From Rugalucina vietnamica (Eukaryota > Mollusca > Bivalvia > Lucinida > Lucinidae): a stretch of DNA of 64,000 nucleotides. The notes below the pieces were generated by a model. That model did not search any database. It was not told the origin of the DNA and worked only from the letters and a program-made list of their open reading frames with translations. Where the stretch lies: NCBI GenBank assembly GCA_964017185.1, contig OZ024875.1:65591043-65655042 (forward strand), written 5' to 3'. Shown piece by piece: positions 1 through 60,625 of this stretch. Positions within the stretch are counted from its first letter, which is position 1. Each line of letters begins with the position of its first letter. The position numbers and the translations under genes were made by a program.

Positions 1-144
1 ACATTCATGGGTTTGGGGGTGGGGTATGAGGCACCCCTGTCATTGACGTGCGCGGAGTTTAGGGAGCAAGCGACCTAGTGGGATTTACAGTAGAAGGGAT
101 GTACTTTCAGACCAAATAAGCGGCTATGCCGGGAAAACTCTACT

Positions 145-161
145 TTTCGAGAAATAGGGGT
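145..161 (+). other. CENP-B-box-like 17-mer (present in nearly every monomer)
   Basis: In the first complete monomer, 'tttcgagaaataggggt' fits the mammalian CENP-B box consensus NTTCGNNNNANNCGGGN at 8 of 9 constrained positions; only the C at position 13 is replaced by G. The variant with 'aaataagggt' also scores 8 of 9 (A at 13), and the 'gaagtagggg' variant 7 of 9. In the right arm the same motif is on the minus strand. In human alpha satellite this box binds CENP-B. Box-like motifs have been described in satellites of many animals, but whether a CENP-B-like protein binds here is unknown. Confidence 0.6.
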
Positions 162-237
162 ACAAAGATGACCGAAAATGGAAATTTCTGTATAGTATTG
201 CAATGTGTCGGTACCAACTCGGGGTGGTTTCTCACAG

Positions 238-277
238 AACCCCACCGAGTTTAGGGAGTTCGAGACCCAGTGGGGCT
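238..277 (+). other. Hairpin with B-box-like core in each monomer
   Basis: An inverted repeat pairs CCCCAC (240-245) with GTGGGG (270-275), with further pairing after one mismatch. Its loop contains GTTCGAGAC (258-266), which meets the RNA polymerase III B-box consensus GWTCRANNC and is bracketed by GGG and CCC as in a tRNA T-arm. I see no A box (TRGYNNA-type) at the expected 30-90 bp upstream and no T-run terminator nearby, so this is a structural motif rather than a supported promoter. It recurs in essentially every copy, reverse-complemented in the right arm. Confidence 0.45.
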
Positions 278-1565
278 TGTAGTCCATACAAGTGCCTTTA
301 CAGCCCATAGGTCGGTTATACTGGGAAAACTCTGGTTTGTCGGAAATTTCAACTCAAACATTGGGAAACGTGAGCATTCATGGGTTTGGGGGTGGGGTAT
401 GAGGCACCCCTGTCATTGACGTGCGCGGAGTTTAGGGAGCAAGCGACCTAGTGGGATTTACAGTAGAAGGGATGTACTTTCAGACCACATAAGCGGCTAT
501 GCCGGGAAAACTCTAGTTTTCGAGAAATAAGGGTACAAAGATGACCGAAAATGGAAATTTCTGTATAGTATTGCAATGTGTCGGTACCAACTCGGGCTGG
601 TTTCTCACAGAACCCCACCGAGTTTAGGGAGTTCGAGACCCAGTGGGGCTTGTAGTCCATACAAGTGCCTTTACAGCCCATAGGTCGGTTATACTGGGAA
701 AACTCTGGTTTGTCGGAAATTTCAACTCAAACATTGGGAAACGTGAACATTCATGGGTTTGGGGGTGGGGTATGAGGCACCCTGTCATTGACGTGCGCGG
801 AGTTTAGGGAGCAAGCGACCTAGTGGGATTTACAGTAGAAGGGATGTACTTTCAGACCACATAAGCGGCTATGCCGGGAAAACTCTAGTTTTCGAGAAAT
901 AGGGGTACAAAGATGACCGAAAATGGAAATTTCTGTATAGTATTGCAATGTGTCGGTACCAACTCGGGCTGGTTTCTCACAGAACCCCACCGAGTTTAGG
1001 GAGTTCGAGACCCAGTGGGGCTTGCAGTCCATACAAGTGCCTTTACAGCCCATAGGTCGGTTATACTGGGAAAACTCTGGTTTGTCGGAAATTTCAACTC
1101 AAACATTGGGAAACGTGAACATTCATGGGTTTGGGGGTGGGGTATGAGGCACCCCTGTCATTGACGTGCGCGGAGTTTAGGGAGCAAGCGACCTAGTGGG
1201 ATTTACAGTAGAAGGGATGTACTTTCAGACCACATAAGCGGCTATGCCGGGAAAACTCTAGTTTTCGAGAAATAAGGGTACAAAGATGACCGAAAATGGA
1301 AATTTCTGTATAGTATTGCAATGTGTCGGTACCAACTCGGGCTGGTTTCTCACAGAACCCCACCGAGTTTAGGGAGTTCGAGACCCAGTGGGGCTTGTAG
1401 TCCATACAAGTGCCTTTACAGCCCATAGGTCGGTTATACTGGGAAAACTCTGGTTTGTCGGAAATTTCAACTCAAACACTGGGAAACGTGAACATTCATG
1501 GGTTTGGGGGTGGGGTATGAGGCACCCCTGTCATTGACTTGCGCGGAGTTTAGGGAGCAAGCGAC

Positions 1566-4500
1566 CTAGTGGGATTTACAGTAGAAGAGATGTACTTTCA
1601 GACCAAATAAGCGGCTATGCCGGGAAAACTCTAGTTTTCGAGAAATAGGGGTACAAAGATGACCGAAAATGGAAATTTCTGTATAGTATTGCAATGTGTC
1701 GGTACCAACTCGGGCTGGTTTCTCACAGAACCCCACCGAGTTTAGGGAGTTCGAGACCCAGTGGGGCTTGTAGTCCATACAAGTGCCTTTACAGCCCATA
1801 GGTCGGTTATACTGGGAAAACTCTGGTTTGTCGGAAATTTCAACTCAAACATTGGGAAACGTGAACATTCATGGGTTTGGGGGTGGGGTATGAGGCACCC
1901 CTGTCATTGACGTGCGCGGAGTTTAGGGAGCAAGCGACCTAGTGGGATTTACAGTAGAAGGGATGTACTTTCAGACCACATAAGCGGCTATGCCGGGAAA
2001 ACTCTAGTTTTCGAGAAATAAGGGTACAAAGATGACCAAAAATGGAAATTTCTGTATAGTATTGCAATGTGTCGGTACCAACTCGGGCTGGTTTCTCACA
2101 GAACCCCACCGAGTTTAGGGAGTTCGAGACCCAGTGGGGCTTGTAGTCCATACAAGTGCCTTTACAGCCCATAGGTCGGTTATACTGGGAAAACTCTGGT
2201 TTGTCGGAAATTTCAACTCAAACATTGGGAAACGTGAACATTCATGGGTTTGGGGGTGGGGTATGAGGCACCCTGTCATTGACGTGCGCGGAGTTTAGGG
2301 AGCAAGCGACCTAGTGGGATTTACAGTAGAAGGGATGTACTTTCAGACCACATAAGCGGCTATGCCGGGAAAACTCTAGTTTTCGAGAAATAGGGGTACA
2401 AAGATGACCGAAAATGGAAATTTCTGTATAGTATTGCAATGTGTCGGTACCAACTCGGGCTGGTTTCTCACAGAACCCCACCGAGTTTAGGGAGTTCGAG
2501 ACCCAGTGGGGCTTGTAGTCCATACAAGTGCCTTTACAGCCCATAGGTCGGTTATACTGGGAAAACTCTGGTTTGTCGGAAATTTCAACTCAAACATTGG
2601 GAAACGTGAACATTCATGGGTTTGGGGGTGGGGTATGAGGCACCCCTGTCATTGACGTGCGCGGAGTTTAGGGAGCAAGCGACCTAGTGGGATTTACAGT
2701 AGAAGGGATGTACTTTCAGACCACATAAGCGGCGATGCCGGGAAAGCTCTAGTTTTCGAGAAATAGGGGTACAAAGATGACCGAAAATGGAAATTTCTGT
2801 ATAGTATTGCAATGTGTCGGTACCAACTCGGGCTGGTTTCTCACAGAACCCCACCGAGTTTAGGGAGTTCGAGACCCAGTGGGGCTTGTAGTCCATACAA
2901 GTGCCTTTACAGCCCATAGGTCGGTTATACTGGGAAAACTCTGGTTTGTCGGAAATTTCAACTCAAACATTGGGAAACGTGAACATTCATGGGTTTGGGG
3001 GTGGGGTATGAGGCACCCCTGTCATTGACGTGCGCGGAGTTTAGGGAGCAAGCGACCTAGTGAGATTTACAGTAGAAGGGATGTACTTTCAGACCACATA
3101 AGCGGCTATGCCGGGAAAACTCTAGTTTTCGAGAAGTAGGGGTACAAAGATGACCGAAAATGGAAATTTCTGTATAGTATTGCAATGTGTCGGTACCAAC
3201 TCGGGCTGGTTTCTCACAGAACCCCACCGAGTTTAGGGAGTTCGAGACCCAGTGGGGCTTGTAGTCCATACAAGTGCCTTTACAGCCCATAGGTCGGTTA
3301 TACTGGGAAAACTCTGGTTTGTCGGAAATTTCAACTCAAACATTGGGAAACGTGAACATTCATGGGTTTGGGGGTGGGGTATGAGGCACCCCTGTCATTG
3401 ACGTGCGCGGAGTTTAGGGAGCAAGCGACCTAGTGGGATTTACAGTAGAAGGGATGTACTTTCAGACCAAATAAGCGGCTATGCCGGGAAAACTCTAGTT
3501 TTCGAGAAATAGGGGTACAAAGATGACCGAAAATGGAAATTTCTGTATAGTATTGCAATGTGTCGGTACCAACTCGGGCTGGTTTCTCACAGAACCCCAC
3601 CGAGTTTAGGGAGTTCGAGACCCAGTGGGGCTTGTAGTCCATACAAGTGCCTTAACAGCCCATAGGTCGGTTATACTGGGAAAACTCTGGTTTGTCGGAA
3701 ATTTCAACTCAAACATTGGGAAACGTGAACATTCATGGGTTTGGGGGTGGGGTATGAGGCACCCCTGTCATTGACGTGCGCGGAGTTTAGGGAGCAAGCG
3801 ACCTAGTGGGATTTACAGTAGAAGGGATGTACTTTCAGACCACATAAGCGGCTATGCCGGGAAAACTCTAGTTTTCGAGAAATAAGGGTACAAAGATGAC
3901 CGAAAATGGAAATTTCTGTATAGTATTGCAATGTGTCGGTACCAACTCGGGCTGGTTTCTCACAGAACCCCACCGAGTTTAGGGAGTTCGAGACCCAGTG
4001 GGGCTTGTAGTCCATACAAGTGCCTTTACAGCCCATAGGTCGGTTATACTGGGAAAACTCTGGTTTGTCGGAAATTTCAACTCAAACATTGGGAAACGTG
4101 AACATTCATGGGTTTGGGGGTGGGGTATGAGGCACCCTGTCATTGACGTGCGCGGAGTTTAGGGAGCAAGCGACCTAGTGGGATTTACAGTAGAAGGGAT
4201 GTACTTTCAGACCACATAAGCGGCTATGCCGGGAAAACTCTAGTTTTCGAGAAATAGGGGTACAAAGATGACCGAAAATGGAAATTTCTGTATAGTATTG
4301 CAATGTGTCGGTACCAACTCGGGCTGGTTTCTCACAGAACCCCACCGAGTTTAGGGAGTTCGAGACCCAGTGGGGCTTGTAGTCCATACAAGTGCCTTTA
4401 CAGCCCATAGGTCGGTTATACTGGGAAAACTCTGGTTTGTCGGAAATTTCAACTCAAACATTGGGAAACGTGAACATTCATGGGTTTGGGGGTGGGGTAT

Positions 4501-5293
4501 GAGGCACCCCTGTCATTGACGTGCGCGGAGTTTAGGGAGCAAGCGACCTAGTGGGATTTACAGTAGAAGGGATGTACTTTCAGACCACATAAGCGGCGAT
4601 GCCGGGAAAGCTCTAGTTTTCGAGAAATAGGGGTACAAAGATGACCGAAAATGGAAATTTCTGTATAGTATTGCAATGTGTCGGTACCAACTCGGGCTGG
4701 TTTCTCACAGAACCCCACCGAGTTTAGGGAGTTCGAGACCCAGTGGGGCTTGTAGTCCATACAAGTGCCTTTACAGCCCATAGGTCGGTTATACTGGGAA
4801 AACTCTGGTTTGTCGGAAATTTCAACTCAAACATTGGGAAACGTGAACATTCATGGGTTTGGGGGTGGGGTATGAGGCACCCCTGTCATTGACGTGCGCG
4901 GAGTTTAGGGAGCAAGCGACCTAGTGAGATTTACAGTAGAAGGGATGTACTTTCAGACCACATAAGCGGCTATGCCGGGAAAACTCTAGTTTTCGAGAAG
5001 TAGGGGTACAAAGATGACCGAAAATGGAAATTTCTGTATAGTATTGCAATGTGTCGGTACCAACTCGGGCTGGTTTCTCACAGAACCCCACCGAGTTTAG
5101 GGAGTTCGAGACCCAGTGGGGCTTGTAGTCCATACAAGTGCCTTTACAGCCCATAGGTCGGTTATACTGGGAAAACTCTGGTTTGTCGGAAATTTCAACT
5201 CAAACATTGGGAAACGTGAACATTCATGGGTTTGGGGGTGGGGTATGAGGCACCCCTGTCATTGACGTGCGCGGAGTTTAGGGAGCAAGCGAC
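1566..5293 (-). repeat. Two copies of a 5-monomer (1864-bp) higher-order repeat
   Basis: Units 1566-3429 and 3430-5293 repeat the same order of five monomer variants. Diagnostic changes recur exactly 1864 bp apart: 'gcggcgatgccgggaaagct' near 2731 and 4595, 'ctagtgagattt' near 3058 and 4922, 'gagaagtagggg' near 3134 and 4998, and the one-base-short 372-bp copy at 1939-2310 and 3803-4174. A third copy starts at 5294 but loses two monomers. Elsewhere in the left arm the same variants appear in shuffled order, for example the 'accccgccgag' unit at 10518 and 12383. This is the signature of unequal exchange in multiples of one monomer. Confidence 0.88.
3803..4036 (-). other. Representative of the recurrent 77-codon open frame of the satellite
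   Basis: Most monomers contain an ATG-initiated 77-codon frame beginning MGCKGTCMDYKPHW and ending HPFYCKSH; this is one typical copy. It has six cysteines (residues 3, 7, 25, 49, 65, 74), no signal peptide, no membrane segment, and no domain that I recognise. It recurs because the monomer recurs. Copies with early stops (for example units at about 7905, 16786, 17532, 27230 and 32451) sit among open ones and are amplified just as faithfully. In the outer right block an extra base in a T-run truncates it to 61 codons in many units. Two other frames of the monomer are also partly open. I regard it as non-coding by default. Confidence 0.7.
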
Positions 5294-8200
5294 CTAGTGG
5301 GATTTACAGTAGAAGGGATGTACTTTCAGACCAAATAAGCGGCTATGCCGGGAAAACTCTAGTTTTCGAGAAATAGGGGTACAAAGATGACCGAAAATGG
5401 AAATTTCTGTATAGTATTGCAATGTGTCGGTACCAACACGGGCTGGTTTCTCACAGAACCCCACCGAGTTTAGGGAGTTCGAGACCCAGTGGGGCTTGTA
5501 GTCCATACAAGTGCCTTTACAGCCCATAGGTCGGTTATACTGGGAAAACTCTGGTTTGTCGGAAATTTCAACTCAAACATTGGGAAACGTGAACATTCAT
5601 GGGTTTGGGGGTGGGGTATGAGGCACCCCTGTCATTGACGTGCGCGGAGTTTAGGGAGCAAGCGACCTAGTGGGATTTACAGTAGAAGGGATGTACTTTC
5701 AGACCACATAAGCGGCTATGCCGGGAAAACTCTAGTTTTCGAGAAATAAGGGTACAAAGATGACCAAAAATGGAAATTTCTGTATAGTATTGCAATGTGT
5801 CGGTACCAACTCGGGCTGGTTTCTCACAGAACCCCACCGAGTTTAGGGAGTTCGAGACCCAGTGGGGCTTGTAGTCCATACAAGTGCCTTTACAGCCCAT
5901 AGGTCGGTTATACTGGGAAAACTCTGGTTTGTCGGAAATTTCAACTCAAACATTGGGAAACGTGAACATTCATGGGTTTGGGGGTGGGGTATGAGGCACC
6001 CCTGTCATTGACGTGCGCGGAGTTTAGGGAGCAAGCGACCTAGTGGGATTTACAGTAGAAGGGATGTACTTTCAGACCACATAAGCGGCTATGCCGGGAA
6101 AACTCTAGTTTTCGAGAAGTAGGGGTACAAAGATGACCGAAAATGGAAATTTCTGTATAGTATTGCAATGTGTCGGTACCAACTCGGGCTGGTTTCTCAC
6201 AGAACCCCACCGAGTTTAGGGAGTTCGAGACCCAGTGGGGCTTGTAGTCCATACAAGTGCCTTTACAGCCCATAGGTCGGTTATACTGGGAAAACTCTGG
6301 TTTGTCGGAAATTTCAACTCAAACATTGGGAAACGTGAACATTCATGGGTTTGGGGGTGGGGTATGAGGCACCCCTGTCATTGACGTGCGCGGAGTTTAG
6401 GGAGCAAGCGACCTAGTGGGATTTACAGTAGAAGGGATGTACTTTCAGACCAAATAAGCGGCTATGCCGGGAAAACTCTAGTTTTCGAGAAATAGGAGTA
6501 CAAAGATGACCGAAAATGGAAATTTCTGTATAGTATTGCAATGTGTCGGTACCAACTCGGGGTGGTTTCTCACAGAACCCCACCGAGTTTAGGGAGTTCG
6601 AGACCCAGTGGGGCTTGTAGTCCATACAAGTGCCTTTACAGCCCATAGGTCGGTTATACTGGGAAAACTCTGGTTTGTCGGAAATTTCAACTCAAACATT
6701 GGGAAACGTGAACATTCATGGGTTTGGGGGTGGGGTATGAGGCACCCCTGTCATTGACGTGCGCGGAGTTTAGGGAGCAAGCGACCTAGTGGGATTTACA
6801 GTAGAAGGGATGTACTTTCAGACCACATAAGCGGCTATGCCGGGAAAACTCTAGTTTTCGAGAAATAAGGGTACAAAGATGACCGAAAATGGAAATTTCT
6901 GTATAGTATTGCAATGTGTCGGTACCAACTCGGGCTGGTTTCTCACAGAACCCCACCGAGTTTAGGGAGTTCGAGACCCAGTGGGGCTTGTAGTCCATAC
7001 AAGTGCCTTTACAGCCCATAGGTCGGTTATACTGGGAAAACTCTGGTTTGTCGGAAATTTCAACTCAAACATTGGGAAACGTGAACATTCATGGGTTTGG
7101 GGGTGGGGTATGAGGCACCCCTGTCATTGACGTGCGCGGAGTTTAGGGAGCAAGCGACCTAGTGGGATTTACAGTAGAAGGGATGTACTTTCAGACCACA
7201 TAAGCGGCGATGCCGGGAAAACTCTAGTTTTCGAGAAATAGGGGTACAAAGATGACCGAAAATGGAAATTTCTGTATAGTATTGCAATGTGTCAATACCA
7301 ACTCGGGCTGGTTTCTCACAGAACCCCACCGAGTTTAGGGAGTTCGAGACCCAGTGGGGCTTGTAGTCCATACAAGTGCCTTTACAGCCCATAGGTCGGT
7401 TATACTGGGAAAACTCTGGTTTGTCGGAAATTTCAACTCAAACATTGGGAAACGTGAACATTCATGGGTTTGGGGGTGGGGTATGAGGCACCCCTGTCAT
7501 TGACGTGCGCGGAGTTTAGGGAGCAAGCGACCTAGTGGGATTTACAGTAGAAGGGATGTACTTTCAGACCACATAAGCGGCTATGCCGGGAAAACTCTAG
7601 TTTTCGAGAAGTAGGGGTACAAAGATGACCGAAAATGGAAATTTCTGTATAGTATTGCAATGTGTCGGTACCAACTCGGGCTGGTTTCTCACAGAACCCC
7701 ACCGAGTTTAGGGAGTTCGAGACCCAGTGGGGCTTGTAGTCCATACAAGTGCCTTTACAGCCCATAGGTCGGTTATACTGGGAAAACTCTGGTTTGTCGG
7801 AAATTTCAACTCAAACATTGGGAAACGTGAACATTCATGGGTTGGTTTGGGGGTGGGGTATGAGGCACCCTGTCATTGACGTGCGCGGAGTTTAGGGAGC
7901 AAGCGACCTAGTGGGATTTACAGTAGAAGGGATGTACTTTCAGACCACATAAGCGGCTATGCCGGGAAAACTCTAGTTTTCGAGAAATAGGGGTACAAAG
8001 ATGACCGAAAATGGAAATTTCTGTTTAGTATTGCAATGTGTCGGTACCAACTCGGGCTGGTTTCTCACAGAACCCCACCGAGTTTAGGGAGTTCGAGACC
8101 CAGTGGGGCTTGTAGTCCATACAAGTGCCTTTACAGCCCATAGGTCGGTTATACTGGGAAAACTCTGGTTTGTCGGAAATTTCAACTCAAACATTGGGAA

Positions 8201-11200
8201 ACGTGAACATTCATGGGTTTGGGGGTGGGGTATGAGGCACCCCTGTCATTGACGTGCGCGGAGTTTAGGGAGCAAGCGACCTAGTGGGATTTACAGTAGA
8301 AGGGATGTACTTTCAGACCACATAAGCGGCTATGCCGGGAAAACTCTAGTTTTCGAGAAATAAGGGTACAAAGATGACCGAAAATGGAAATTTCTGTATA
8401 GTATTGCAATGTGTCGGTACCAACTCGGGCTGGTTTCTCACAGAACCCCACCGAGTTTAGGGAGTTCGAGACCCAGTGGGGCTTGTAGTCCATACAAGTG
8501 CCTTTACAGCCCATAGGTCGGTTATACTGGGAAAACTCTGGTTTGTCGGAAATTTCAACTCAAACACTGGGAAACGTGAACATTCATGGGTTTGGGGGTG
8601 GGGTATGAGGCACCCCTGTCATTGACGTTCGCGGAGTTTAGGGAGCAAGCGACCTAGTGGGATTTACAGTAGAAGGGATGTACTTTCAGACCAAATAAGC
8701 GGCTATGCCGGGAGAACTCTAGTTTTCGAGAAATAGGGGTACAAAGATGACCGAAAATGGAAATTTCTGTATAGTATTGCAATGTGTCGGTACCAACTCG
8801 GGCTGGTTTCTCACAGAACCCCACCGAGTTTAGGGAGTTCGAGACCCAGTGGGGCTTGTAGTCCATACAAGTGCCTTTACAGCCCATAGGTCGGTTATAC
8901 TGGGAAAACTCTGGTTTGTCGGAAATTTCAACTCAAACATTGGGAAACGTGAACATTCATGGGTTTGGGGGTGGGGTATGAGGCACCCCTGTCATTGACG
9001 TGCGCGGAGTTTAGGGAGCAAGCGACCTAGTGGGATTTACAGTAGAAGGAATGTACTTTCAGACCACATAAGCGGCTATGCCGGGAAAACTCTAGTTTTC
9101 GAGAAATAAGGGTACAAAGATGACCGAAAATGGAAATTTCTGTATAGTATTGCAATGTGTCGGTACCAACTCGGGCTGGTTTCTCACAGAACCCCACCGA
9201 GTTTAGGGAGTTCGATACCCAGTGGGGCTTGTAGTCCATACAAGTGCCTTTACAGCCCATAGGTCGGTTATACTGGGAAAACTCTGGTTTGTCGGAAATT
9301 TCAACTCAAACATTGGGAAACGTGAACATTCATGGGTTTGGGGGTGGGGTATGAGGCACCCTGTCATTGACGTTCGCGGAGTTTAGGGAGCAAGCGACCT
9401 AGTGGGATTTACAGTAGAAGGGATGTACTTTCAGACCACATAAGCGGCTATGCCGGGAAAACTCTAGTTTTCGAGAAATAGGGGTACAAAGATGACCGAA
9501 AATGGAAATTTCTGTATAGTATTGCAATGTGTCGGTACCAACTCGGGCTGGTTTCTCACAGAACCCCACCGAGTTTAGGGAGTTCGAGACCCAGTGGGGC
9601 TTGTAGTTCATACAAGTGCCTTTACAGCCCATAGGTCGGTTATACTGGGAAAACTCTGGTTTGTCGGAAATTTCAACTCAAACATTGGGAAACGTGAACA
9701 TTCATGGGTTTGGGGGTGGGGTATGAGGCACCCCTGTCATTGACGTGCGCGGAGTTTAGGGAGCAAGCGACCTAGTGGGATTTACAGTAGAAGGGATGTA
9801 CTTTCAGACCACATAAGCGGCTATGCCGGGAAAACTCTAGTTTTCGAGAAATAAGGGTACAAAGATGACCGAAAATGGAAACTTCTGTATAGTATTGCAA
9901 TGTGTCGGTACCAACTCGGGCTGGTTTCTCACAGAACCCCACCGAGTTTAGGGAGTTCGAGACCCAGTGGGGCTTGTAGTCCATACAAGTGCCTTTACAG
10001 TCCATAGGTCGGTTATACTGGGTAAACTCTGGTTTGTCGGAAATTTCAACTCAAACATTGGGAAACGTGAACATTCATGGGTTTGGGGGTGGGGTATGAG
10101 GCACCCCTGTCATTGACGTGCGCGGAGTCTAGGGAGCAAGCGACCTAGTGGGATTTACAGTAGAAGGGATGTACTTTCAGACCACATAAGCGGCGATGCC
10201 GGGAAAACTCTAGTTTTCGAGAAATAGGGGTACAAAGATGACCGAAAATGGAAATTTCTGTATAGTATTGCAATGTGTCGGTACCAACTCGGGCTGGTTT
10301 CTCACAGAACCCCACCGAGTTTAGGGAGTTCGAGACCCAGTGGGGCATGTAGTCCATACAAGTGCCTTTACAGCCCATAGGTCGGTTATACTGGGAAAAC
10401 TCTGGTTTGTCGGAAATTTCAACTCAAACATTGGGAAACGTGAACATTCATGGGTTTGGGGGTGGGGTATGAGGCACCCCTGTCATTGACGTGCGCGGAG
10501 TTTAGGGAGCAAGCGACCTAGTGGGATTTACAGTAGAAGGGATGTACTTTTAGACCAAATAAGCGGCTATGCCGGGAAAACTCTAGTTTTCGAGAAATAG
10601 GGGTACAAAGATGACCGAAAATGGAAATTTCTGTATAGTATTGCAATGTGTCGGTACCAACTCGGGCTGGTTTCTCACAGAACCCCGCCGAGTTTAGGGA
10701 GTTCGAGACCCAGTGGGGCTTGTAGTCCATACAAGTGCCTTTACAGCCCATAGGTCGGTTATACTGGGAAAACTCTGGTTTGTCGGAAATTTCAACTCAA
10801 ACATTGGGAAACGTGAACATTCATGGGTTTGGGGGTGGGGTATGAGGCACCCCTGTCATTGACGTGCGCGGAGTTTAGGGAGCAAGCGACCTAGTGGGAT
10901 TTACATTAGAACGGATGTACTTTCAGACCACATAAGCGGCTATGCCGGGAAAACTCTAGTTTTCGAGAAATAGGGGTACAAAGATGACCGAAAATGGAAA
11001 TTTCTGTATAGTATTGCAATGTGTCGGTACCAACTCGGGCTGGTTTCTCACAGAACCCCACCGAGTTTAGGGAGTTCGAGACCCAGTGGGGCTTGTAGTC
11101 CATACAAGTGCCTTTACAGCCCATAGGTCGGTTATACTGGGAAAACTCTGGTTTGTCGGAAATTTCAACTCAAACATTGAGAAACGTGAACATTCATGGG

Positions 11201-14805: not shown

Positions 14806-14810
14806 TCACG
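14801..14810. other. Inversion junction within the satellite array
   Basis: Left of the junction the monomer reads '...cttagggagttcg' (to 14805). Canonical copies would continue 'agacccagtgg'. Instead, after a single t at 14806, the sequence is the opposite strand of the monomer entered at 'cacgtcaatgacagg'. The two arms therefore meet inside different parts of the monomer, not at a palindromic centre, and there is essentially no microhomology. The last left unit (14581-14805) and the first right unit (14807-15150) both carry more private changes than interior copies, as expected at a boundary where homologous exchange is blocked by the flip. Confidence 0.93.
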
Positions 14811-24600: not shown

Positions 24601-24618
24601 TCCCAGTATAACCGACCT
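18651..24618 (+). repeat. Right-arm block 2: near-consensus monomers
   Basis: Sixteen units close to the overall consensus, with no clean higher-order period that I can define by eye. Recurrent variants include a 'ctaggtggcttgctcc' plus 'ccgtgcacgtc' pair (near 19627, 22231, 23358, 24105) and 'ggcatttgtatgg' (near 21648 and 23513). The last two units, 23873-24618, match a two-monomer segment found again at 34688-35433. Confidence 0.75.
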
Positions 24619-35800: not shown

Positions 35801-35806
35801 CGACCT
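29840..35806 (+). repeat. 14-monomer higher-order repeat, copy 2, enlarged to 16 monomers (5967 bp)
   Basis: All diagnostic variants of copy 1 recur in order: 'gtaaccttatttc' unit at 30213, 'gtctgatagtac' near 30782, 'aaccaacctatgg' near 31325, 'tttgaacccctatt' in the 32451 unit, the one-base-short 'ggtgtggttctg' unit at 33569, 'ggcatcgccgc' at 33942 and 'ctcggcgggg' at 35434. Two extra monomers (34688-35433) separate the last two markers. Their own markers ('ggtggcttgctcc', 'ccgtgcacgtc', 'gtcaataacagg') match the pair at 23873-24618 just upstream of copy 1. Confidence 0.9.
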
Positions 35807-39908: not shown

Positions 39909-42890
39909 ATGGGCTGTAAAGGCACTTGTATGGACTACAAGCCCCACTGGGTCTCAAACTCCCAAAACTCGGTGGGGTTCTGTGAGAAACCTGCCCGAGT
40001 TGGTACCGACACATTGCAATACTATACAGAAATTTCCATTTTCGGTCATCTTTGTACCCCTATTTCTCGAAAACTAGAGTTTTCCCGGCATAGCCGCTCA
40101 TGTGGTCTGAAAGTACATCCCTTCTACTGTAAATCCCACTAGGTCGCTTGCTCCCTAAACTCCGCGCACGTCAATGACAGGGGTGCCTCATACCCCACCC
40201 CCAAACCCATGAATGTTCACGTGTCCCAATGTTTGAGTTGAAATTTCCGACAAACCAGAGTTTTCCCAGTATAACCGACCTATGGGCTGTAAAGGCACTT
40301 GTATGGACTACAAGCCCCACTGGGTCTCGAACTCCCTAAACTCGGTGGGGTTCTGTGAGAAACCAGCCCGAGTTGGTACCGACACATTGCAATACTATAC
40401 AGAAATTTCCATTTTCGGTCATCTTTGTACCCCTATTTCTCGAAAACTAGAGTTTTCCCGGCATAGCCGCTTATGTGGTCTGAAAGTACATCCCTTCTAC
40501 TGTAAATCCCACTAGGTCGCTTGCTCCCTAAACTCCGCGCACGTCAATGACAGGGGTGCCTCATACCCCACCCCCAAACCCATGAATGTTCACGTTTCCC
40601 AATGTTTGAGTTGAAATTTCCGACAAACCAGAGTTTTCCCAGTATAACCGACCTATGGGCTGTAAAGGCACTTGTATGGACTACAAGCCCCACTGGGTCT
40701 CGAACTCCCTAAACTCGGTGGGGTTCTGTGAGAAACCAGCCCGAGTTGGTACAGACACATTGCAATACTATACAGAAATTTCCATTTTCGGTCATCTTTG
40801 TACCCCTATTTCTCGAAAACTAGAGTTTTCCCGGCATCGCCGCTTATGTGGTCTGAAAGTACATCCCTTCTACTGTAAATTCCACTAGGTCGCTTGCTCC
40901 CTAAACTCCGCGCACGTCAATGACAGGGGTGCCTCATACCCCACCCCCAAACCCATGAATGTTCACGTTTCCCAATGTTTGAGTTGAAATTTCCGACAAA
41001 CCAGAGTTTTCCCAGTATAACCGACCTATGGGCTGTAAAGGCACTTGTATGGACTACAAGCCCCACTGGGTCTCGAACTCCCTTAACTCGGTGGGGTTCT
41101 GTGAGAAACCAGCCCGAGTTGGTACCGACACATTGCAATACTATACAGAAATTTCCATTTTCGGTCATCTTTGTACCCTTATTTCTCGAAAACTAGAGTT
41201 TTCCCGGCATAGCCGCTTATGTGGTCTGAAAGTACATCCCTTCTACTGTAAATTCCACTAGGTCGCTTGCTCCCTAAACTCCGCGCACGTCAATGACAGG
41301 GGTGCCTCATACCCCACCCCCAAACCCATGAATGTTCACGTTTCCCAATGTTTGAGTTGAAATTTCCGACAAACCAGAGTTTTCCCAGTATAACCGACCT
41401 ATGGGCTGTAAAGGCACTTGTATGGACTACAAGCCCCACTGGGTCTCGAACTCCCTAAACTCGGTGGGGTTCTGTGAGAAACCAGCCCGAGTTGGTACCG
41501 ACACATTGCAATACTATACAGAAATTTCCATTTTCGGTCATCTTTGTACCCCTATTTCTCGAAAACTAGAGTTTTCCCGGCATAGCCGCTTATTTGGTCT
41601 GAAAGTACATCCCTTCTACTGTAAATCCCACTAGGTCGCTTGCTCCCTAAACTCCGCGCACGTCAATGACAGGGGTACCTCATACCCCACCCCCAAACCC
41701 ATGAATGTTCACGTTTCCCAATGTTTGAGTTGAAATTTCCGACAAACCAGAGTTTTCCCAGTATAACCGACCTATGGGCTGTAAAGGCACTTCTATGGAC
41801 TACACGCCCCACTGGGTCTCGAACTCCCTAAACTCGGTGGGGTTCTGTGAGAAACCAGCCCGAGTTGGTACCGACACATTGCAATACTATACAGAAATTT
41901 CCATTTTCGGTCATCTTTGTACCCCTATTTCTCGAAAACTAGAGTTTTCCCGGCATAGCCGCTTATGTGGTCTGAAAGTACATCCCTTCTACTGTAAATC
42001 CCACTAGGTCGCTTGCTCCCTAAACTCCGCGCACGTCAATGACAGGGGTGCCTCATACCCTACCCCCAAACCCATGAATGTTCACGTTTCCCAATGTTTG
42101 AGTTGAAATTTCCGACAAACCAGAGTTTTCCCAGTATAACCGACCTATGGGCTGTAAAGGCACTTGTATGGACTACAAGCCCCACTGGGTCTCGAACTCC
42201 CTAAACTCGGTGGGGTTCTGTGAGAAACCAGCCCGAGTTGGTACCGACACATTGCAATACTATACAGAAATTTCCATTTTCGGTCATCTTTGTACCCTTA
42301 TTTCTCGAAAACTAGAGTTTTCCCGGCATAGCCGCTTATGTGGTCTGAAAGTACATCCCTTCTACTGTAAATCCCATTAGGTCGCTTGCTCCCTAAACTC
42401 CGCGCACGTCAATGACAGGGGTGCCTCATACCCCACCCCCAAACCCATGAATGTTCACGTTTCCCAATGTTTGAGTTGAAATTTCCGACAAACCAGAGTT
42501 TTCCTAGTATAACCGACCTATGGGCTGTAAAGGCACTTGTATGGACTACAAGCCCCACTGGGTCTCGAACTCCCTAAACTCGGTGGGGTTCTGTGAGAAA
42601 GCAGCCCGAGTTGGTACCGACACATTGCAATACTATATAGAAATTTCCATTTTCGGTCATCTTTGTACCCCTATTTCTCGAAAACTAGAGTTTTCCCGGC
42701 ATAGCCGCTTATTTGGTCTGAAAGTACATCCCTTCTACTGTAAATCCCACTAGGTCGCTAGCTCCCTAAACTCCGCGCACGTCAATGACAGGGTGCCTCA
42801 TACCCCACCCCAAACCCATGAATGTTCACGTTTCCCAATGTTTGAGTTGAAATTTCCGACAAACCAGAGTTTTCCCAGTATAACCGACCT
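39909..42890 (+). repeat. Mixed monomers distal to the higher-order repeats
   Basis: Eight units of about 373 bp with mixed variants and no clear period. The last part (about 42780) has lost bases in both 'gacagggtgcc' and 'ccaccccaaac', the first signs of the more diverged outer block. The frame remains open in all eight. Confidence 0.75.
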
Positions 42891-45800
42891 ATGGGCTGTA
42901 AAGGCACTTGTATGGACTACAAGCCCCACTGGGTCTCGAACTCCCTAAACTCGGTGGGGTTCTGTGAGAAACCAGCCCGAGTTGGTACCGACACATTGCA
43001 ATACAATACAGAAATTTCCATTTTTGGTCATTTTTGTACCCCTATTTCTCGAAAACTAGAGTTTTCCCGGCATAGCCGCTTATGTGGTCTGAAAGTACAT
43101 CATTCCTTCTACTGTAAATCCCACTAGGTCGCTTGCTCCCTAAACTCCGCGCACGTCAATGACAGGGGTGCCTCTTACCCCACCCGCAAACACATGAATG
43201 TTCACGTTTCCCAATGTTTGAGTTGAAATTTCCGACAAACCAGAGTTTTCCCAGTATAACCGACCTATGGGCTGTAAAGGCACTTGTATGGACTACAAGC
43301 CCCACTGGGTCTCGAACTCCCTAAACTCGGTGGGGTTCTGTGAGAAACCAGCCCGAGTTGGTACCGACACATTGCAATACTGTACAGAAATTTCCATTTT
43401 CGGTCATTTTTGTACCCCTATTTTTTCGAAAACTAGAGTTTTCCCGGCATAGCCGCTTATGTGATTTAAAAAACGTCCCTTCTACTGTAAATCCCACTAG
43501 GTCGTTTGCTCCCTAAACTCCGCGCACGTCAATGACAGGGGTGCCTCTTACCCCACCCCCAAACCCATGAATGTTCACGTTTCCCAATGTTTGAGTTGAA
43601 ATTTCCGACAAACCAGAGTTTTCCCAGTATTACCGACCTATGGGCTGTAAAGGCACTTGTATGGACTACAAGGCCCACTGGGTCTCGAACTCCCTAAACT
43701 CGGTTGGGTTCTGTGAGAAACCAGCCCGAGTTGGTACCGGCACATTGCAATACTGTACCGAAATTTCCATTTTCGGTCATTTTTGTACCCCTATTTTTTC
43801 GAAAACTAGAGTTTTCCCGGCATAGCCGCTTATGTGATTTAAAAGTACGTCCCTTCTACTGTAAATCCCACTAGGTCGTTTGCTCCCTAAACTCCGCGCA
43901 CGTCAATGACAGGGGTGCCTCTTACCCCACCCCCAAACCCATGAATGTTCACGTTTCCCAATGTTTGAGTTGAAATTTCCGACAAACCAGAGTTTTCCCA
44001 GTATAACCGACCTATGGGCTGTAAAGGCACTTGTATGGACTACAAGCCTCACTGGGTCTCGAACTCCCTAAACTCGGTGGGGTTCTGTGAGAAACCAGCC
44101 CGAGTTGGTACCGACACATTGCAATACTGTACAGAAATTTCCATTTTTGATCATTTTTGTACCCCTATTTCTAGAAAACTAGAGTTTTCCCGGCATAGCC
44201 GCTTATGTGGTCTGAAAGTACATTCCTTCTTCTGTAAATCCCACTAGGTCGCTTGCTCCCTAAACTCCGCGCACGTCAATGACAGGGGTGCCTCTTACCC
44301 CAACACCAAACCAATGAATGTTCACGTTTCCCAATGTTTGAGTTGAAATTTCCGACAAACCAGAGTTTTCCTAGTATAACCGACCTATGGGCTGTAAAGG
44401 CACTTGTATGGACTACAAGCCCCACTGGGTCTCGAACTCCCTAAACTCGGTGGGGTTCTGTGAGAAACCAGCCCGAGTTGGTACCGACACATTGCAATAC
44501 TGTACAGAAATTTCCATTTTCGGTCATCTTTGTACCCCTATTTCTCGAAAACCAGAGTTTTCCCGACAAAGCCGCTTATATGGTCTAAAAGTACATCCCT
44601 TCTACTGTAAATCCCACTAGGTCGCTTGCTCCCTAATCTCCGTGCTCGCTAATCACAGGGGTACCTTATACCCCACCCCCAAACCCATGAATGTTCACGT
44701 TTCCCAATGTTTGAGTTAAAATTTCCGACAAACCAGAGTTTTCCCAGTATAACCGACCAATGGGCTGTAAAGGCACTTGTATAGACTACAAGCCCCACTG
44801 GGTCTCGAACTCCCTTAACTCGGTGGGGTTCTGTGAGAAACCAGCACGAGTTGGTACCGACACATTGCAATACTGTACAGAAATTTCCATTTTCGGTCAT
44901 CTTTGTACCCCTATTTCTCGAAAACCAGAGTTTTCCCGACATAGCCGCTTATATGGTCTGAAAGTACATCCCTTCTACTGTAAATCCCACTAGGTCGCTT
45001 GCTCCCTAAACTCCGCGCACGTCAATGACAGGGGTGCCTCATACCCCACCCCCAAACCCATGAATGTTCACGTTTCCCAATGTTTGAGTTGAAATTTCCG
45101 ACAAACCAGAGTTTTCCCAGTATTACCGACCTATGGGCTGTAAAGGCACTTGTATGGACTACAAGGCCCACTGGGTCTCGAACTCCCTAAACTCGGTGGG
45201 GTTCTGTGAGAAACCAGCCCGAGTTGGTACCGACACATTGCAATACTGTACAGAAATTTCCATTTTCGGTCATTTTTGTACCCCTATTTTTTCGAAAACT
45301 AGAGTTTTCCCGGCATAGCCGCTTATGTGGTTTAAAAGTACATCCATTCTACTGTAAATCTCACTAGGTCGTTTGCTCCCTAAACTCCGCGCACGTCAAT
45401 GACAGGGGTGCCTCATACCCACCCCCAAAACCATGAATGTTCACGTTTCCCAATGTTTGAGTTGAAATTTCCGACAAACCAGAGTTTTCCCAGTATAACC
45501 GACCTATGGGCTGTAAAGGCACTTGTATGGACTACAAGCCCCACTGGGTCTCGAACTCCCTAAACTCGGTGGGGTTCTGTGAGAAACCAGCCCGAGTTGG
45601 TACCGACACATTGCAATACTGTACAGAAATTTCCATTTTTGGTCATTTTTGTACCCCTATTTTTTCGAAAACTAGAGTTTTCCCGGCATAGGGGCTTATG
45701 TGGTTTAAAAGTACGTCCCTTCTACTGTAAATCCCACTAGGTCGTTTGCTCCCTAAACTCCGCGCACGTCAATGACAGGGGTGCCTCTTACCCCACCCCC

Positions 45801-48800
45801 AAACCCATGAATGTTCACGTTTCCCAATGTTTGAGTTGAAATTTCCGACAAACCAGAGTTTTCCCAGTATTACCGACCTATGGGCTGTAAAGGCACTTGT
45901 ATGGACTATAAGGCCCACTGGGTCTCGAACTCCCTAAACTCGGTTGGGTTCTGTGAGAAACCAGCCCGAGTTGGTACCGACACATTGCAATACTGTACAG
46001 AAATTTCCATTTTCGGTCATTTTTGTACCCCTATTTTTTCGAAAACTAGAGTTTTCCCGGCATAGCCGCTTATGTGGTTTAAAAGTACGTCCCTTCTACT
46101 GTAAATCCCGCAAGGTCGTTTGCTCCCTAAACTCCGCGCACGTCAATGACAGGGGTGCCTCTTACCCCACCCCCAAACCCATGAATGTTCACGTTTCCCA
46201 ATGTTTGAGTTGAAATTTCCGACAAACCAGAGTTTTCCCAGTATAACCGACCTATGGGCTGTAAAGGCAATTGTATGGACTACAAGCCTCACTGGGTCTC
46301 GAACTCCCTAAACTCGGTGGGGTTCTGTGAGAAACCAGCCCGAGTTGGTACCGACACATTGCAATACTGTACAGAAATTTCCATTTTTGGTCATTTTTGT
46401 ACCCCTATTTCTAGAAAACTAGAGTTTTCCCGGCATAGCCGCTTATGTGGTCTGAAAGTACATTCCTTCTTCTGTAAATCCCACTAGATCGCTTGCTCCC
46501 TAAACTCCGCGCACGTCAATGACAGGGGTGCCTCTTACCCCACCCCCAAACCAATGAATGTTCACGTTTCCCAATGTTTGAGTTGAAATTTCCGACAAAG
46601 CAGAGTTTTCCCAGTATAACCGACCTATGGGCTGTAAAGGCACTTGTATAGACTACAAGCCCCACTGGGTCTCGAACTCCCTAAACTCGGTGGGGTTCTG
46701 TGAGAAACCAACCCGAGTTGGTACCGACACATTGCAATACTATACAGAAATTTCCATTTTCGGTCATCTTTGTACCCCTATTTCTCGAAAACCAGAGTTT
46801 TCCCGACATAGCCGCTTATATGGTCTGAAAGTACATCCATTCTACTGTAAATCCCACTAGGTCGCTTGCTCCCTAAACTCCGCGCACGTCAATGACAGGG
46901 GTGCCTCATACCCAACCCCCAAATCCATGAATGTTCACGTTTCCCAATGTTTGAGTTGAAATTTCCGACAAACCAGAGTTTTCCCAGTATAACCGACCTA
47001 TGGGCTGTAAAGGCACTTGTATGGACTACAAGTCCCACTGGGTCTCGAACTCCCTAAACTCGGTGGGGTTCTGTGAGAAACCAGCCCGAGTTGGTACCGA
47101 CACATTGCAATACTGTACAGAAATTTCCATTTTTGGTCATTTTTGTACCCCTATTTTTTCGAAAACTAGAGTTTTCCCGGCATAGCCGCTTATGTGGTCT
47201 AAAAGTACATCCCTTCTACTGTAAATCCCACTAGGTCGCTTGCTCCCTAAACTCCGCGAACGTCAATGACAGGGGTGCCTCTTACCCCACCTCCAAACCC
47301 GTGAATGTTCACGTTTCCCAATGTTTGAGTTGAAATTTCCGACAAACCAGAGTTTTCCCAATATAACCGACCTATGGGCTGTAAAGGTACTTGTATGGAC
47401 TACAAGCCCCACTGGGTCTCGAACTCCCTAAACTCGGTGGGGTTCTGTGAGAAACCAGCCCGAGTTGGTACCGACACATTGCAATACTATACAGAAATTT
47501 CCATTTTTGGTCATTTTTGTACCCCTGTTTCTCGAAAACTAGAGTTTTCCCGGCATAGCCATTTATGTGGTCTAAAAGTACATACATTCTACTGTAAATC
47601 CCACTAGGTCGCTTGCTCCCTAAACTCCGCGCACGTCAATGACAGGGGTGCCTCATACCCCACCCCCAAACCCATGAATGTTCATGTTTCCCAATGTTTG
47701 AGTTGAAATTTCCGACAAACCAGAGTTGTCCCAGTATTACCGACCTATGGGCTGTAAAGGCACTTGTATAGACTACAAGGCCCACTGGGTCTCGAACTCC
47801 CTAAACTCGGTGGGGTTCTGTGAGAAACCAGCCCGTTTTGGTACCGACACATTGCAATACTGTACAGAAATTTCCATTTTCGGTCATCTTTGTACCCCTA
47901 TTTCTCGAAAACCAGAGTTTTTCCGACATAGCCGCTTATATGGTCTAAAAGTACATCCCTACTACTGTAAATCCCACTAGGTCGCTTGCTCCCTAAACTC
48001 CGTGCTCGCCAATCACAGGGGTACCTTATACCCCACCCCCAAACCCATGAATGTTCACGTTTCCCAATGTTTGAGTTAAAATTTCCGACAAACCAGAGTT
48101 TTCCCAGTATAACCGACCTATGGGCTGTAAAGGCACTTGTATGGACTACAAGCCCCACTGGGTCTCGAACTCACTAAACTCGGTGGGGTTCTGTGAGAAG
48201 CCAGCCCGAGTTGCTACCGACACATTGCAATACTGTACAGAAATTTCATTTTTGGTCATTTTTGTACCCCTATTTCTAGAAAACTAGAGTTTTCCCGGCA
48301 TAGCCGCTTATGTGGTCTAAAAATACATCCCTTCTACTGTAAATCCCACTAGGTCGCTTGCTCCCTAAACTCCGTGCACGTCAATGACAGGGGTGCCTTA
48401 AACCCCACCCCCAAACCCATGAATGTTCACGTTTCCCAATGTTTGAGTTGAAATTTCCGACAAACCAGAGTTTTCCCAGTATAACCGACCTATGGGCTGT
48501 AAAGGCACTTGTATGGACTACAAGACCCACTGGGTCTCGAACTCCCTAAACTCGGTGGGGTTCTGTGAGAAACCAGCCCGAGTTGGTACCGACACATTGC
48601 AATACTATACAGAAATTTCCATTTTTGGTCATTTTTGTACCCCTATTTCTCGAAAACTAGAGTTTTCCCGGCATAGCCGCTGATGTGGTCTAAAAGTACA
48701 TCCCTTCTACTGTAAATCCCACTAGGTCGCTTGCTCCCTAAACTCCGTGCTCGCCAATCACAGGGGTACCTTATACCCCACCCCCAAACCCATGAATGTT

Positions 48801-51719
48801 CACGTTTCCCAATGGTTGAGTTAAAATTTCCGACAAACCAGAGTTTTCCCAGTCTAACCGACCTATGGGCTGTAAAGGCACTTGTATGGACTACAAGCCC
48901 CACTGAGTCTCGAACTCCCTAAACTCGGTGGGGTTCTGTGAGAAACCAGCCCGAGTTGGTACCGACACATTGCAATACTGTACAGAAATTTCCATTTTTG
49001 GTCATTTTTGTACCCCTATTTCTAGAAAACTAGAGTTTTCCCGGCATAGCCGCTTATGTGGTCTAAAAATACATCCCTTCTACTGTAAATCCCACTAGGT
49101 CGCTTGCTCCCTAAACTCCGTGCACGTCAATGACAGGGGTGTCTTATACCCCACCCCTAAACCCATGAATGTTCACGTTTCCCAATGTTTGAGTTGAAAT
49201 TTTCAACAAACCAGAGATTTCCCAGTATAACCGACCTATGGGCTGTAAAGGCACTTGTATGGACTACAAGACCCACTGGGTCTCGAACTCCCTAAACTCG
49301 GTGGGGTTCTGTGAGAAACCAGCCCGAGTTGGTACCGACACATTGCAATACTGTACAGAAATTTCCATTTTTGGTCATTTTTGTACCCCTATTTTTTCGA
49401 AAACTAGAGTTTTCCCGGCATAGCCGCTTATGTGGTCTGAAAGTACATTCCTTCTACTGTAAATCCCACTAGGTCGCTTGCTCCCTAAACTCCGCGCACG
49501 TCAATGACAGGGGTGCCTCATACCCCACCCCCAAACCCATGAATGTTCACGTTTCCCAATGTTTGAGTTGAAATTTTCGACAAACCAGAGTTTTCCCAGT
49601 ATAACCGACCAATGGGCTGTAAAGGCACTTGTATAGACTACAAGCCCCACTGGGTCTCGAACTCCCTAAACTCGGTGGGGTTCTGTGAGAAACCAGCCCG
49701 AGTTGGTACCGACACATTGCAATACTGTACAGAAATTTCCATTTTTGGTCAATTTTGTACCCCTATTTCTAGAAAACTAGAGTTTTCCCGGCATAGCCGC
49801 TTATGTGGTCTGAAAGTACATTCCTTCTTCTGTAAATCCCACTAGGTCGCTTGCTCCCTAAACTCCGCGCACGTCAATGACAGGGGTGCCTCTTACCCCA
49901 CCCCCAAACCAATGAATGTTCACGTTTCCCAATGTTTGAGTTGAAATTTCCGACAAACCAGAGTTTTCCCAGTATAACCGACCAATGGGCTGTAAAGGCA
50001 CTTGTATAGACTACAAGCCCCACTGGGTCTCGAACTCCCTAAACTCGGTGGGGTTCTGTGAGAAACCAGCCCGAGTTGGTACCGACACATTGCAATACTA
50101 TACAGAAATTTCCATTTTCGGTCATCTTTGTACCCCTATTTCTCGAAAACCAGAGTTTTCCCGACATAGCCGCTTATATGGTCTGAAAGTACATCCATTC
50201 TACTGTAAATCCCATTAGGTCGCTTGCTCCCTAAACTCCGCGCACGTCAATGACAGGGGTGCCTCATACCCCACCCCCAAACCCATGAATGTTCACGTTT
50301 CCCAATGTTTGAGTTGAAATTTCCGACAAACCAGAGTTTTCCCAGTATAACCGACCTATGGGCTGTAAAGGCACTTGTATGGACTACAAGCCCCACTGGG
50401 TCTCGAACTCCCTAAACTCGGTGGGGTTCTGTGAGAAACCAGCCCGAGTTGGTACCGACACATTGCAATACTGTACAGAAATTTCTATTTTTGGTCATTT
50501 TTGTACCCCTATTTTTCGAAAACTAGAGTTTTCCGGGCATAGCCGCTTATGTGGTCTAAAAGTACATCCCTACTACTGTAAATCCCACTAGGTCGCTTGC
50601 TCCCTAAACTCCGCGAACATAAATGACAGGGGTGCCTCTTACCCCACCTCCAAACCCATGAATGTTCACGTTTCCCAATGTTTGACTTGAAATTTCCGAC
50701 AAACCAGAGTTTTCCCAGTATAACCGATCTATGGGCTGTAAAGGCACTTGTATGGACTACAAGCCCCACTGGGTCTCGAACTCCTTAAACTCGGTGGGGT
50801 TCTGTGAGAAACCAGCCCGAGTTGGTACCGACACATTGCAAAACTGTACAGAAATTTCCATTTTTGGTCATTTTTGTACCCCTATTTCTAGAAAACTAGA
50901 GTTTTCCCGGCATAGCCGCTTATGTGGTCTGAAAATACATCCCTTCTACTGTAAATCCCACTAGGTCGCTTGCTCCCTAAACTCCGTGCACGTCAATGAC
51001 AGGGGTGCCTTAAACCCCACCCCCAAACCCATGAATGTTCACGTTTCCCAATGTTTGAGTTGAAATTTTCGACAAACCAGAGTTTTCCCAGTATAACCGA
51101 CCTATGGGCTGTAAAGGCACTTGTATGGACTACAAGACCCACTGGGTCTCGAACTCCCTAAACTCGGTGGGGTTTTGTGAGAAACCAGCCCGAGTTGGTA
51201 CCGACACATTGCAATACTATACAGAAATTTCCATTTTTGGTCATTTTTGTACCCCTATTTCTCGAAAACTAGAGTTTTCCCGGCATAGCCGCTTATGTGG
51301 TCTGAAAGTACATTCCTTCTACTGTAAATCCCACTAGGTCGCTTGCTCCCTAAACTCCGCGCACGTCAATGACAGGGGTGCCTCTTACCCCACCCGCAAA
51401 CCCATGAATGTTCACGTTTCCCAATGTTTGAGTTGAAATTTCCGACAAACCAGAGTTTTCCCAATATAACCGACCTATGGGCTGTAAAGGCACTTGTATA
51501 GACTACAAGCCCCACTGGGTCTCGAACTCCCTAAACTCGGTGGGGTTCCGTGAGAAACCAGCCCGAGTTGGTACCGACACATTGCAATACTATACAGAAA
51601 TTTCCATTTTCGGTCATCAAAGTTTTCCCGACATAGCCGCTTATGTGGTCTGAAAGTACATCCCTTCTACTGTAAATCCCACTAGGTCGCTTGCTCCCTA
51701 AACTCCGCGCACGTCAATG
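42891..51719 (+). repeat. Right-arm outer block: diverged 373/374-bp subfamily
   Basis: About 24 monomers that share changes rare elsewhere: 'atactgtacagaaa', 'ggtcatttttgtacc', 'cctatttttt cgaaaac' (one extra T-run base, which gives the 374-bp units), 'ctatttctagaaaac', 'gcctcttacccc', 'gttttcccgacatagc' and 'cgcttatatggtc'. Local higher-order order exists: 43640-44759 matches 45880-46999 (2240 bp apart) and part recurs at 49612-50357. Units around 47986 and 48731 repeat with a 745-bp period marked by 'gtgctcgccaatcacagg'. Divergence between units is visibly higher than in the middle of the array. Confidence 0.85.
51477..51719 (+). repeat. Last, internally deleted satellite monomer
   Basis: The final copy runs normally to 'ccattttcggtcatc' (51618) and then continues 'aaagttttcccgacatag'. 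About 25 bp containing 'tttgtacccctatttctcg', and with it the CENP-B-box-like motif, are missing. It ends in mid-monomer at 'gcgcacgtcaatg' (51719), where the GC-rich hairpin repeat begins. Confidence 0.88.
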
Positions 51720-54467: not shown

Positions 54468-54505
<38 letters not shown>

Positions 54506-55398: not shown

Positions 55399-55438
<40 letters not shown>

Positions 55439-60002: not shown

Positions 60003-60063
60003 ATTTGCATTGGGAATGGGGCCTTATTTCGGCCCCTAAGACACTAAAAAAATCCCTGTCACC

Positions 60064-60530: not shown

Positions 60531-60625
60531 ATCACCGCCAGAAAGGCGTACTCGTGTAGCAAACTGACACAGCTGATAGTCGAACGCCGTTGATAAGGAA
60601 GCAGGTCACCTTGAGAATAGAATAG

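Follow-up and report, generated by a model that had tools for sequence, protein, structure and literature searches.

The window analysed here, the whole 64,000-nucleotide stretch C7:65591043-65655042 of the Rugalucina vietnamica genome assembly (1,089,854,562 bp in 47 contigs, given below as C and a number), is occupied up to position 51,719 by an array of a 373-bp satellite. This array is the interior of a palindromic DNA transposon and not a free-standing satellite locus. Very probably it is the body of a giant non-autonomous transposon of the Foldback type; the closest kind is the Foldback elements, probably of the Mutator superfamily. We further put at roughly two in three the probability that mostly-satellite palindromes of 17-73 kb are themselves the transposing unit, carried with both arms by a trans-acting transposase, and that most of the satellite (~3.1 Mb) was placed in this way. 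The observed basis consists of ends that agree to the base, target duplications of 9 bp, 60 large copies on 16 contigs, a trio of elements whose ends travelled together, and satellite variants common to the two siblings sampled.

The Window Array Within a Palindromic Element

A preliminary description, made from the window alone, reported that a 373-bp satellite extends over 51.7 kb and forms two opposed arms; two programs agreed with it. Tandem Repeats Finder (TRF) recovered the 373-bp unit at window positions 1-14805 (39.7 copies) and 14807-51719 (99.0 copies), and BLAST placed the monomers on the minus strand up to 14805 and on the plus strand starting at 14816, the opposed arms meeting near 14,806. 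At an identity of at least 80%, satellite covered 51,697 of the 51,719 bases, and because the largest uncovered gap was the 10 bp at the arm junction, the window array holds no insert, as had also been claimed. The left arm runs 15.9 kb past the window edge, up to C7:65575159. The surrounding element spans C7:65574282-65642920 (68,639 bp), with inverted ends and a 9-bp target duplication, AAGTTAATA. It starts 16,761 bp to the left of the window, where a type A terminal segment of ~0.9 kb is found, and it ends at window position 51,878, the stretch 51,720-51,878 after the array being part of it. The opposed arms lie within the inverted terminal segments and form part of the inverted repeat. Within the window, the element and its target site comprise:

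1..14805, minus strand: left satellite arm, of which the window holds the right-hand 14.8 kb, in 373-bp monomers
14806..14815, no strand: palindrome centre, without unique spacer; 9 of the 10 bases continue the right-arm satellite
14816..42786, plus strand: right arm, inner part, with 75 monomers of subfamily A
42787..43160, plus strand: transition monomer from satellite subfamily A to B, with 2 of 8 B markers
43161..51718, plus strand: right arm, outer part, with 23 monomers of subfamily B that resemble those of the type-B element C1:58596562
51720..51878, plus strand: terminal segment on the right of the element, of the short type B; it holds imperfect repeats of 41 bp, is predicted to form hairpins and terminates in ...GGCTAACTTCACCCATCT
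51879..51887, no strand: target-site duplication AAGTTAATA, the second copy of which lies directly left of C7:65574282

All six array edges first read led into a terminal segment that stopped at the same base (...GGCTAACTTCACCCATCT), and the flanks beyond differed. This segment was ~0.9 kb long and 95-99% alike at five of the six edges, the right edge of the window array holding only ~160 bp. Read as one pattern, the element ends are AGATGGGTGAAGTTAGCC. The C7 copy is flanked on both sides by AAGTTAATA and the C13 copy on both sides by CTGATATTT. Two end types were distinguished. In type A, a 0.9-kb segment joins the satellite at monomer position ~259-263 (37 junction matches, and 49 for an inner 29-mer); in type B, a segment of 0.16-0.19 kb joins it at position 373 (99 junction matches), and the last monomer carries a 25-bp deletion in both ends aligned. 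Private decay of the element's right end in the window was rejected on the strength of these 99 junctions and of the same short end, with its 25-bp deletion, at C1:58596562. As DNA, the terminal 159 bases folded well above shuffled sequences (z -7.2), which fits hairpin-rich recognition sites but is no proof of them.

The elements read have one plan, in which two inverted terminal segments have a shared outer end and the satellite arms run inwards to meet head to head. Inverted ends bearing tandem repeats, as in Foldback elements, were found in the C7 and C13 copies and in C1:58596562 (C1:58596562-58613438), all read whole, and in the ~80% of the C12 copy that was read. The arms abut at all four centres, with no middle domain; in the window element, the left arm ends at monomer position 153 and the right arm begins at ~365.

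A Family of Large Elements on 16 Contigs

With up to two mismatches, a 27-base end pattern matched 170 sites in the genome (83 forward, 87 reverse) and its reversed control none. Exact ends numbered 142 (38 + 37 + 67, for the 24-base pattern, nine free bases and then A, T and C/G). Each '-' end was joined to the next end if that end was '+' and within 150 kb, a rule which itself fixes the order; independently of it, neighbouring exact ends within 80 kb ran '-+' 62 times and '+-' once. Pairing left 18 single ends and gave 62 pairs, two of them tiny (215 and 277 bp) and 60 large (16,877-73,057 bp, median 44,174, sum 2,699,156). The large pairs are spread over 16 contigs at many positions, and on this ground a centromeric or subtelomeric block was rejected as a general reading, although the C7 and C13 copies both lie within 0.6 Mb of a contig end. 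The tandem arrays are long, head-to-tail and homogenised, as satellite DNA should be; the localised blocks in centromeres or heterochromatin that also belong to that definition were not found in this distribution.

Perfect 9-bp target duplications flank 52 of the 60 large pairs and a perfect 10-bp duplication flanks one; three more have one mismatch and four have no matching duplication. Mispaired ends, used as a control, gave 0 matches in 60,984. Precise ends with a ~9-bp duplication (53 of 60 perfect) are as in Foldback elements, and the length falls within the 8-10 bp of the Mutator superfamily. Target duplications of the P superfamily measure 7-8 bp; here they measure 9.

The duplications also bear on the idea that an ordinary satellite was dispersed by segmental duplication or ectopic recombination, the shared end being a mere flanking repeat. 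The four large pairs without a matching duplication, together with two elements of mixed end type (see below), speak for this, and they indicate that recombination between copies does seem to occur; as the main mode, however, it is refuted by flanks that, at each of the six edges read, diverge directly beyond one common base and by the perfect duplications in 53 of 60 pairs, and we regard it as very improbable. Two elements 0.4 Mb apart, C14:14308802 and C14:14704425, have the same ten right-flank letters (AAAAAAAATG) and duplications with 1 and 3 mismatches, the shared flank being possibly the result of local duplication or exchange.

Assembly errors are known to take the form of palindromes, and one reading would make the array a fold-back artefact, in which a read was fused with its reverse complement. 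Arms that are unequal in both length and sequence, arm centres that vary between elements, differing outside flanks and fitting target duplications all argue against such an artefact, to which we give very little credence. A carrier of the Helentron or Helitron type is scarcely credible at all. Helitron-type elements have unlike ends and no target duplication, whereas here both ends are the same sequence inverted and 9-bp duplications are present. In favour of such a carrier, Helentrons with satellite-like repeats are reported from an oyster (PMC7492417).

The two tiny copies have the same ends as the large ones and, judged by eye, no satellite; the 277-bp copy has a perfect duplication. No exact-ended pair falls between 277 bp and 16.9 kb. 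Ten further probable elements, each with at least one non-exact end and outside the pair count, were found through their satellite junctions, one spanning 8.8 kb and nine spanning 24.6-67.0 kb between junctions. The shortest of them (C16:1341262-1350084, two type-A junctions 8.8 kb apart, one exact end) is the smallest seen among the probable elements with satellite. At C6:66281213, 66288595 and 66341002, type-B junctions lack exact ends; two of these junctions are co-oriented and 7.4 kb apart, and the elements are perhaps nested or rearranged.

When up to three mismatches were allowed, a 37-base pattern from the satellite matched 4,277 forward and 4,051 reverse sites (8,328 in all; control 0), which at one 37-mer per monomer amounts to 8,328 x 373 = 3.11 Mb. 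Compared with the 2.70 Mb within the 60 large pairs, this total means that most of the satellite could lie in pairs, as an estimate from totals and not an element-by-element count. Among the 37-mer matches listed, the location was, by eye, two C1 elements; pairs contain 59 of the 63 full-length satellite matches listed, for which 40 of 1,082 candidates were scored.

From the contrast between the uninterrupted window array and its neighbourhood, the preliminary description had suggested that the array is kept clean by turnover or is recent. The absence of inserts holds for C7, C13 and the part of C12 read, but not as a rule. An arm of C1:6083834 carries an insert of ~1.0 kb within the satellite, ~3.46-4.48 kb from the left end, and C1:58596562 a 2.2-kb non-satellite insert in its right arm (local positions 12963-15180), in which no open reading frame (ORF) above 74 amino acids was found. 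The former has inverted ends resembling TGTCCGGAAAGTTTT. The latter begins TGTCACGA and ends CCGTGACA, lies between two GTACC copies and has, by eye, the look of a solo long terminal repeat.

Ends and Array Variants in Sibling Elements

To compare ends, ~870 bp of 25 type-A ends were aligned and mismatches only were counted (gaps uncounted). Three elements on three chromosomes, C1:6083834 (37.4 kb), C16:20415354 (48.3 kb) and C17:8343968 (39.1 kb), stood out as a trio. Ends of a first class (C1:6.08-L, C16:20.42-R and C17:8.34-R) differ by 0-2 bases and the opposite ends by 0-1, and the two classes are 4-6 apart wherever listed; the orientation is flipped in C1, and each element has its own target duplication. 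Distinguishable left and right ends travelled together in this trio. In a second trio (C1:14.49, C1:19.82 and C13:8.25), corresponding ends pair with 5-8 differences, a small margin given that the two ends of C13:8.25 themselves differ by 7. The own two ends of C16:12.32, C7:55.02 and C13:0.33 are nearest or equal nearest neighbours, and this likeness of own ends in several elements indicates that ends are also homogenised within elements. A candidate flipped copy, C1:98.87/C8:2.98, proposed from two short variants, was rejected because over the full segment C8:2.98-R is 24 differences from either C1:98.87 end.

The satellite appears to move with the ends as cargo. In the 4 kb of arm beside the same end class, sampled in two siblings, monomers of C1:6.08 (6 monomers) and C16:20.42 (10 monomers) are 1.4 bases apart between elements, compared with 1.7 and 1.2 within them and with 5.9-15.6 bases to eight other monomer sets. 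Positions 297, 298 and 307 are variant in 16 of 16 sibling monomers; elsewhere 297 and 298 are variant in 0-5% and 307 in 2-54%. When the sibling arrays were matched by position, with six monomers on one side, the mean was lowest in register 0, at 1.0 difference per monomer, but other shifts gave 1.2-2.0, too close to establish a shared monomer order. The fixed variants common to the siblings, at such low divergence, imply that these variants rode on the moving unit, though not necessarily on an array of full length.

Turnover was also evident in place. For 97.7% of 352 full-length monomers from C7, C13 and C12, the nearest neighbour lies within the same element (38% expected), and for 78% within the same arm. 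The two arms of an element are alike, position 65 being variant in 100% of both C13 arms and positions 28, 267 and 328 in 60-81% of both C12 arms, from which it follows that arms exchange sequence or that one was copied from the other. The turnover suggested in the preliminary description is thus visible. The array is no free-standing satellite locus, however: it makes up the body of a transposable element of which the genome holds at least 60 large copies.

Such turnover gives room to a different history, in which only the ends moved: small foldback elements with few satellite copies would have inserted, and the arrays would have grown in place to tens of kilobases. Largely element-specific monomers and the variants common to both arms are consistent with this, as are the 4-fold variation in size, the unequal lengths within the first trio, the existence (by eye) of tiny copies without satellite, and the probable element of ~9 kb at C16:1341262-1350084 with its one exact end; Tetris arrays are described as expanding in this manner in the available text of that report (PMC4079207). 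However, intermediate sizes are missing from the exact-ended pairs, nine of the ten junction-found pairs already span 24.6 kb or more, and siblings whose ends are 0-2 bases apart share fixed array variants, with divergence between elements as low as that within them. We consider growth in place unlikely, and prefer the transposition of large satellite palindromes.

A Proposed Transposase in Trans

Under transposition of the whole palindrome, the transposase of a Mutator-like element (MULE), supplied in trans, would recognise the hairpin-rich ends and move the unit. While an element stayed in place, unequal exchange and conversion between its arms would alter array length and homogenise both arms, and occasional exchange between elements would yield hybrids such as the window element. 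The 59 MULE-domain hits in the genome, along with the 9-bp duplications, argue for the involvement of a MULE. Among the ORFs of three MULE loci read, a SWIM domain in one and a PHD finger in another exceeded the Pfam cut-off, and two loci (L032 and L033) had inverted repeats on both sides of the ORF. L033 (C3:72687400-72695399) encodes an 889-amino-acid MULE ORF with the PHD finger, between inverted repeats of 145-252 bp. The best match to the ends in the three loci had an E value of 0.006 over 24 bp, and the best 14-base end match had 3 mismatches; an autonomous partner among these loci was rejected, as none bears the ends.

Several observations weigh against the proposed unit and its mode of movement. 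A transposase with these ends was not found: the 59 MULE-domain hits all lie outside the pairs, the closest at 61.5 kb from any exact end; such ends are absent from the three MULE loci read of the 59; and a search for exact ends whose match breaks off after 15 bases found none beyond the control level (1 hit, control 1). The evidence for transposition comprises ends, duplications and siblings, with no empty site among it, and we also count here that the elements read whole were three, with ~80% of a fourth. The single ends (18 of the 142, unpaired as exact ends) and 4 of the 63 full-length satellite matches listed, all at C15:40.63 Mb, fall outside the listed pairs. In addition, monomers are mostly element-specific and own ends are alike, so that homogenisation in place is strong, and the array may have had a different length at the moment of movement. 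The probable ~9 kb element and the small samples shift slightly more weight to growth in place. The four full-length monomers in no exact-ended pair are at C15:40628002-40629493.

End Types and the Hybrid Window Element

Both ends could be labelled by script in 51 pairs, 38 of them BB, 11 AA and 2 mixed. The same type was thus present at both ends in 49 of 51, whereas 100,000 permutations gave a mean of 32.6 and a maximum of 43; with seven more pairs labelled AA by hand, the count becomes 56 of 58, the pairs outside these 58 being two with one unlabelled end and the two tiny copies. Of the mixed elements, one is that of the window, with a type A left end and a type B right end.

Its array changes accordingly. 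The switch in subfamily near 43.0 kb is sharp, the last 24 monomers being different and more diverged. Of eight B markers, the 15 preceding monomers have 0-1, the transition monomer 2 and the next two monomers 6 and 7; among the 23 outer monomers, 20 have 3-7 and three have 1. These markers were picked from the outer arm of C7 itself, and the independent part of the comparison is positions 15, 222 and 266, which are also variable in C1:58596562 (40-60%) and variant at only 0-1% in the other A-type sets. Position 248 is not specific to B, being variant in 56% in the A-type element C7:24.48. Divergence from the consensus in subfamily A is 1.6% in the first ten monomers and averages 0.6-0.8% in the other ten-monomer blocks; subfamily B monomers have 8-19 differences each, and the last, with its 25-bp deletion, has 32. 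Given the perfect duplications of both mixed elements, the choice is between movement of the hybrid in its present form and a conversion tract that swapped one end and left the flank untouched.

Comparison With Known Foldback Systems

The following comparisons refer to the available parts of the accounts cited, in which Tetris, Tm1 and Galileo all have tandem repeats within inverted termini, and Tetris and Tm1 also agree with the present family in duplication length. Tetris of Drosophila virilis, a Foldback element with TIR-220 repeats, is similar in its target duplications of 8-10 bp, in that no transposase was found, and in a deletion relative resembling a miniature inverted-repeat transposable element (MITE), but it has a middle domain and only three structurally complete copies (PMC4079207). 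In the Tetris copy described, one of the terminal repeats holds three or four units, and beta-heterochromatin is named as the site of the large arrays (PMC4079207), whereas the present family has at least 60 end-defined copies of 17-73 kb on 16 contigs, the four read being nearly all satellite. Tm1, a Mutator/Foldback element of root-knot nematodes, has composite terminal repeats of variable length built of tandem units, target duplications most commonly of 9 bp, and MITE-like members; its tandem unit is, however, ~14 bp and not 373 bp, and it has transposase-coding members, none of which was found here (PMC3169594). Galileo of Drosophila (P superfamily) has long terminal repeats with internal tandem repeats of ~210 bp, copies consisting of two terminal repeats only, and chimeric copies, but its terminal repeats reach ~1.26 kb, compared with satellite arms of up to 36.9 kb here (PMC3573991). 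The family may also be compared, under a tentative label, with Rehavkus-like MULEs through the three host MULE loci, two of which have inverted repeats flanking the ORF; none of the three shows the present terminal sequences.

Satellite copies of tens of kilobases are undescribed in the available parts of the Tetris, Tm1 and Galileo accounts (PMC4079207, PMC3169594, PMC3573991). A literature search that covered mostly titles and the starts of abstracts, with few subscription journals or preprints, and that also took in PMC12628747 and PMC6431247, yielded no description of such elements, and '373 bp' had 0 occurrences in the 20 papers listed of 47 found, which is weak evidence only. The plan is of the known Foldback kind, and the copies made of tens of kilobases of satellite are the new feature.

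How satellite DNA reaches many chromosomes and yet stays uniform is an old open question. Our results suggest that it can spread by transposition, beyond local copying alone, and if this is true, the transposition of whole satellite palindromes would be a direct mechanism of dispersal. With arrays that have defined ends, near-identical siblings and target duplications, the spread of a satellite becomes testable locus by locus, and a monomer-by-monomer comparison of siblings with 0-2 base differences in their ends could show both the content of the jump and the later rate of turnover. Palindromes of great length are usually regarded as unstable, and the size of those described here probes the limit up to which non-coding inverted repeats are tolerated by a genome and by a transposase.

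Other Features of the Monomer and Neighbouring DNA

Within the 373-bp monomer, BLAST detected two related stretches about half a monomer apart (~71% over 103 bp). On its reverse strand the monomer contains GAGTTCGAGACC, which resembles a polymerase III B box. An array of structured RNA or tRNA genes was ruled out, as ARAGORN predicted 0 tRNA genes in the window and no Rfam match reached the gathering score.

The 12 kb adjacent to the array had been described as packed with mobile elements. A light check bore this out in part: of three ORFs scanned, one had a reverse transcriptase match over the Pfam cut-off (60821-61204), one a match below it (58946-59467) and one no match, the reverse-transcriptase ORF fragments extending over window positions 58946-62003. 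Outside the element, TRF also found a 128-bp tandem repeat of 6.3 copies at 53102-53898. An inverted repeat at 54470-55434, with 315-nt arms that are 95% complementary and 335 nt apart, is perhaps a small DNA transposon.

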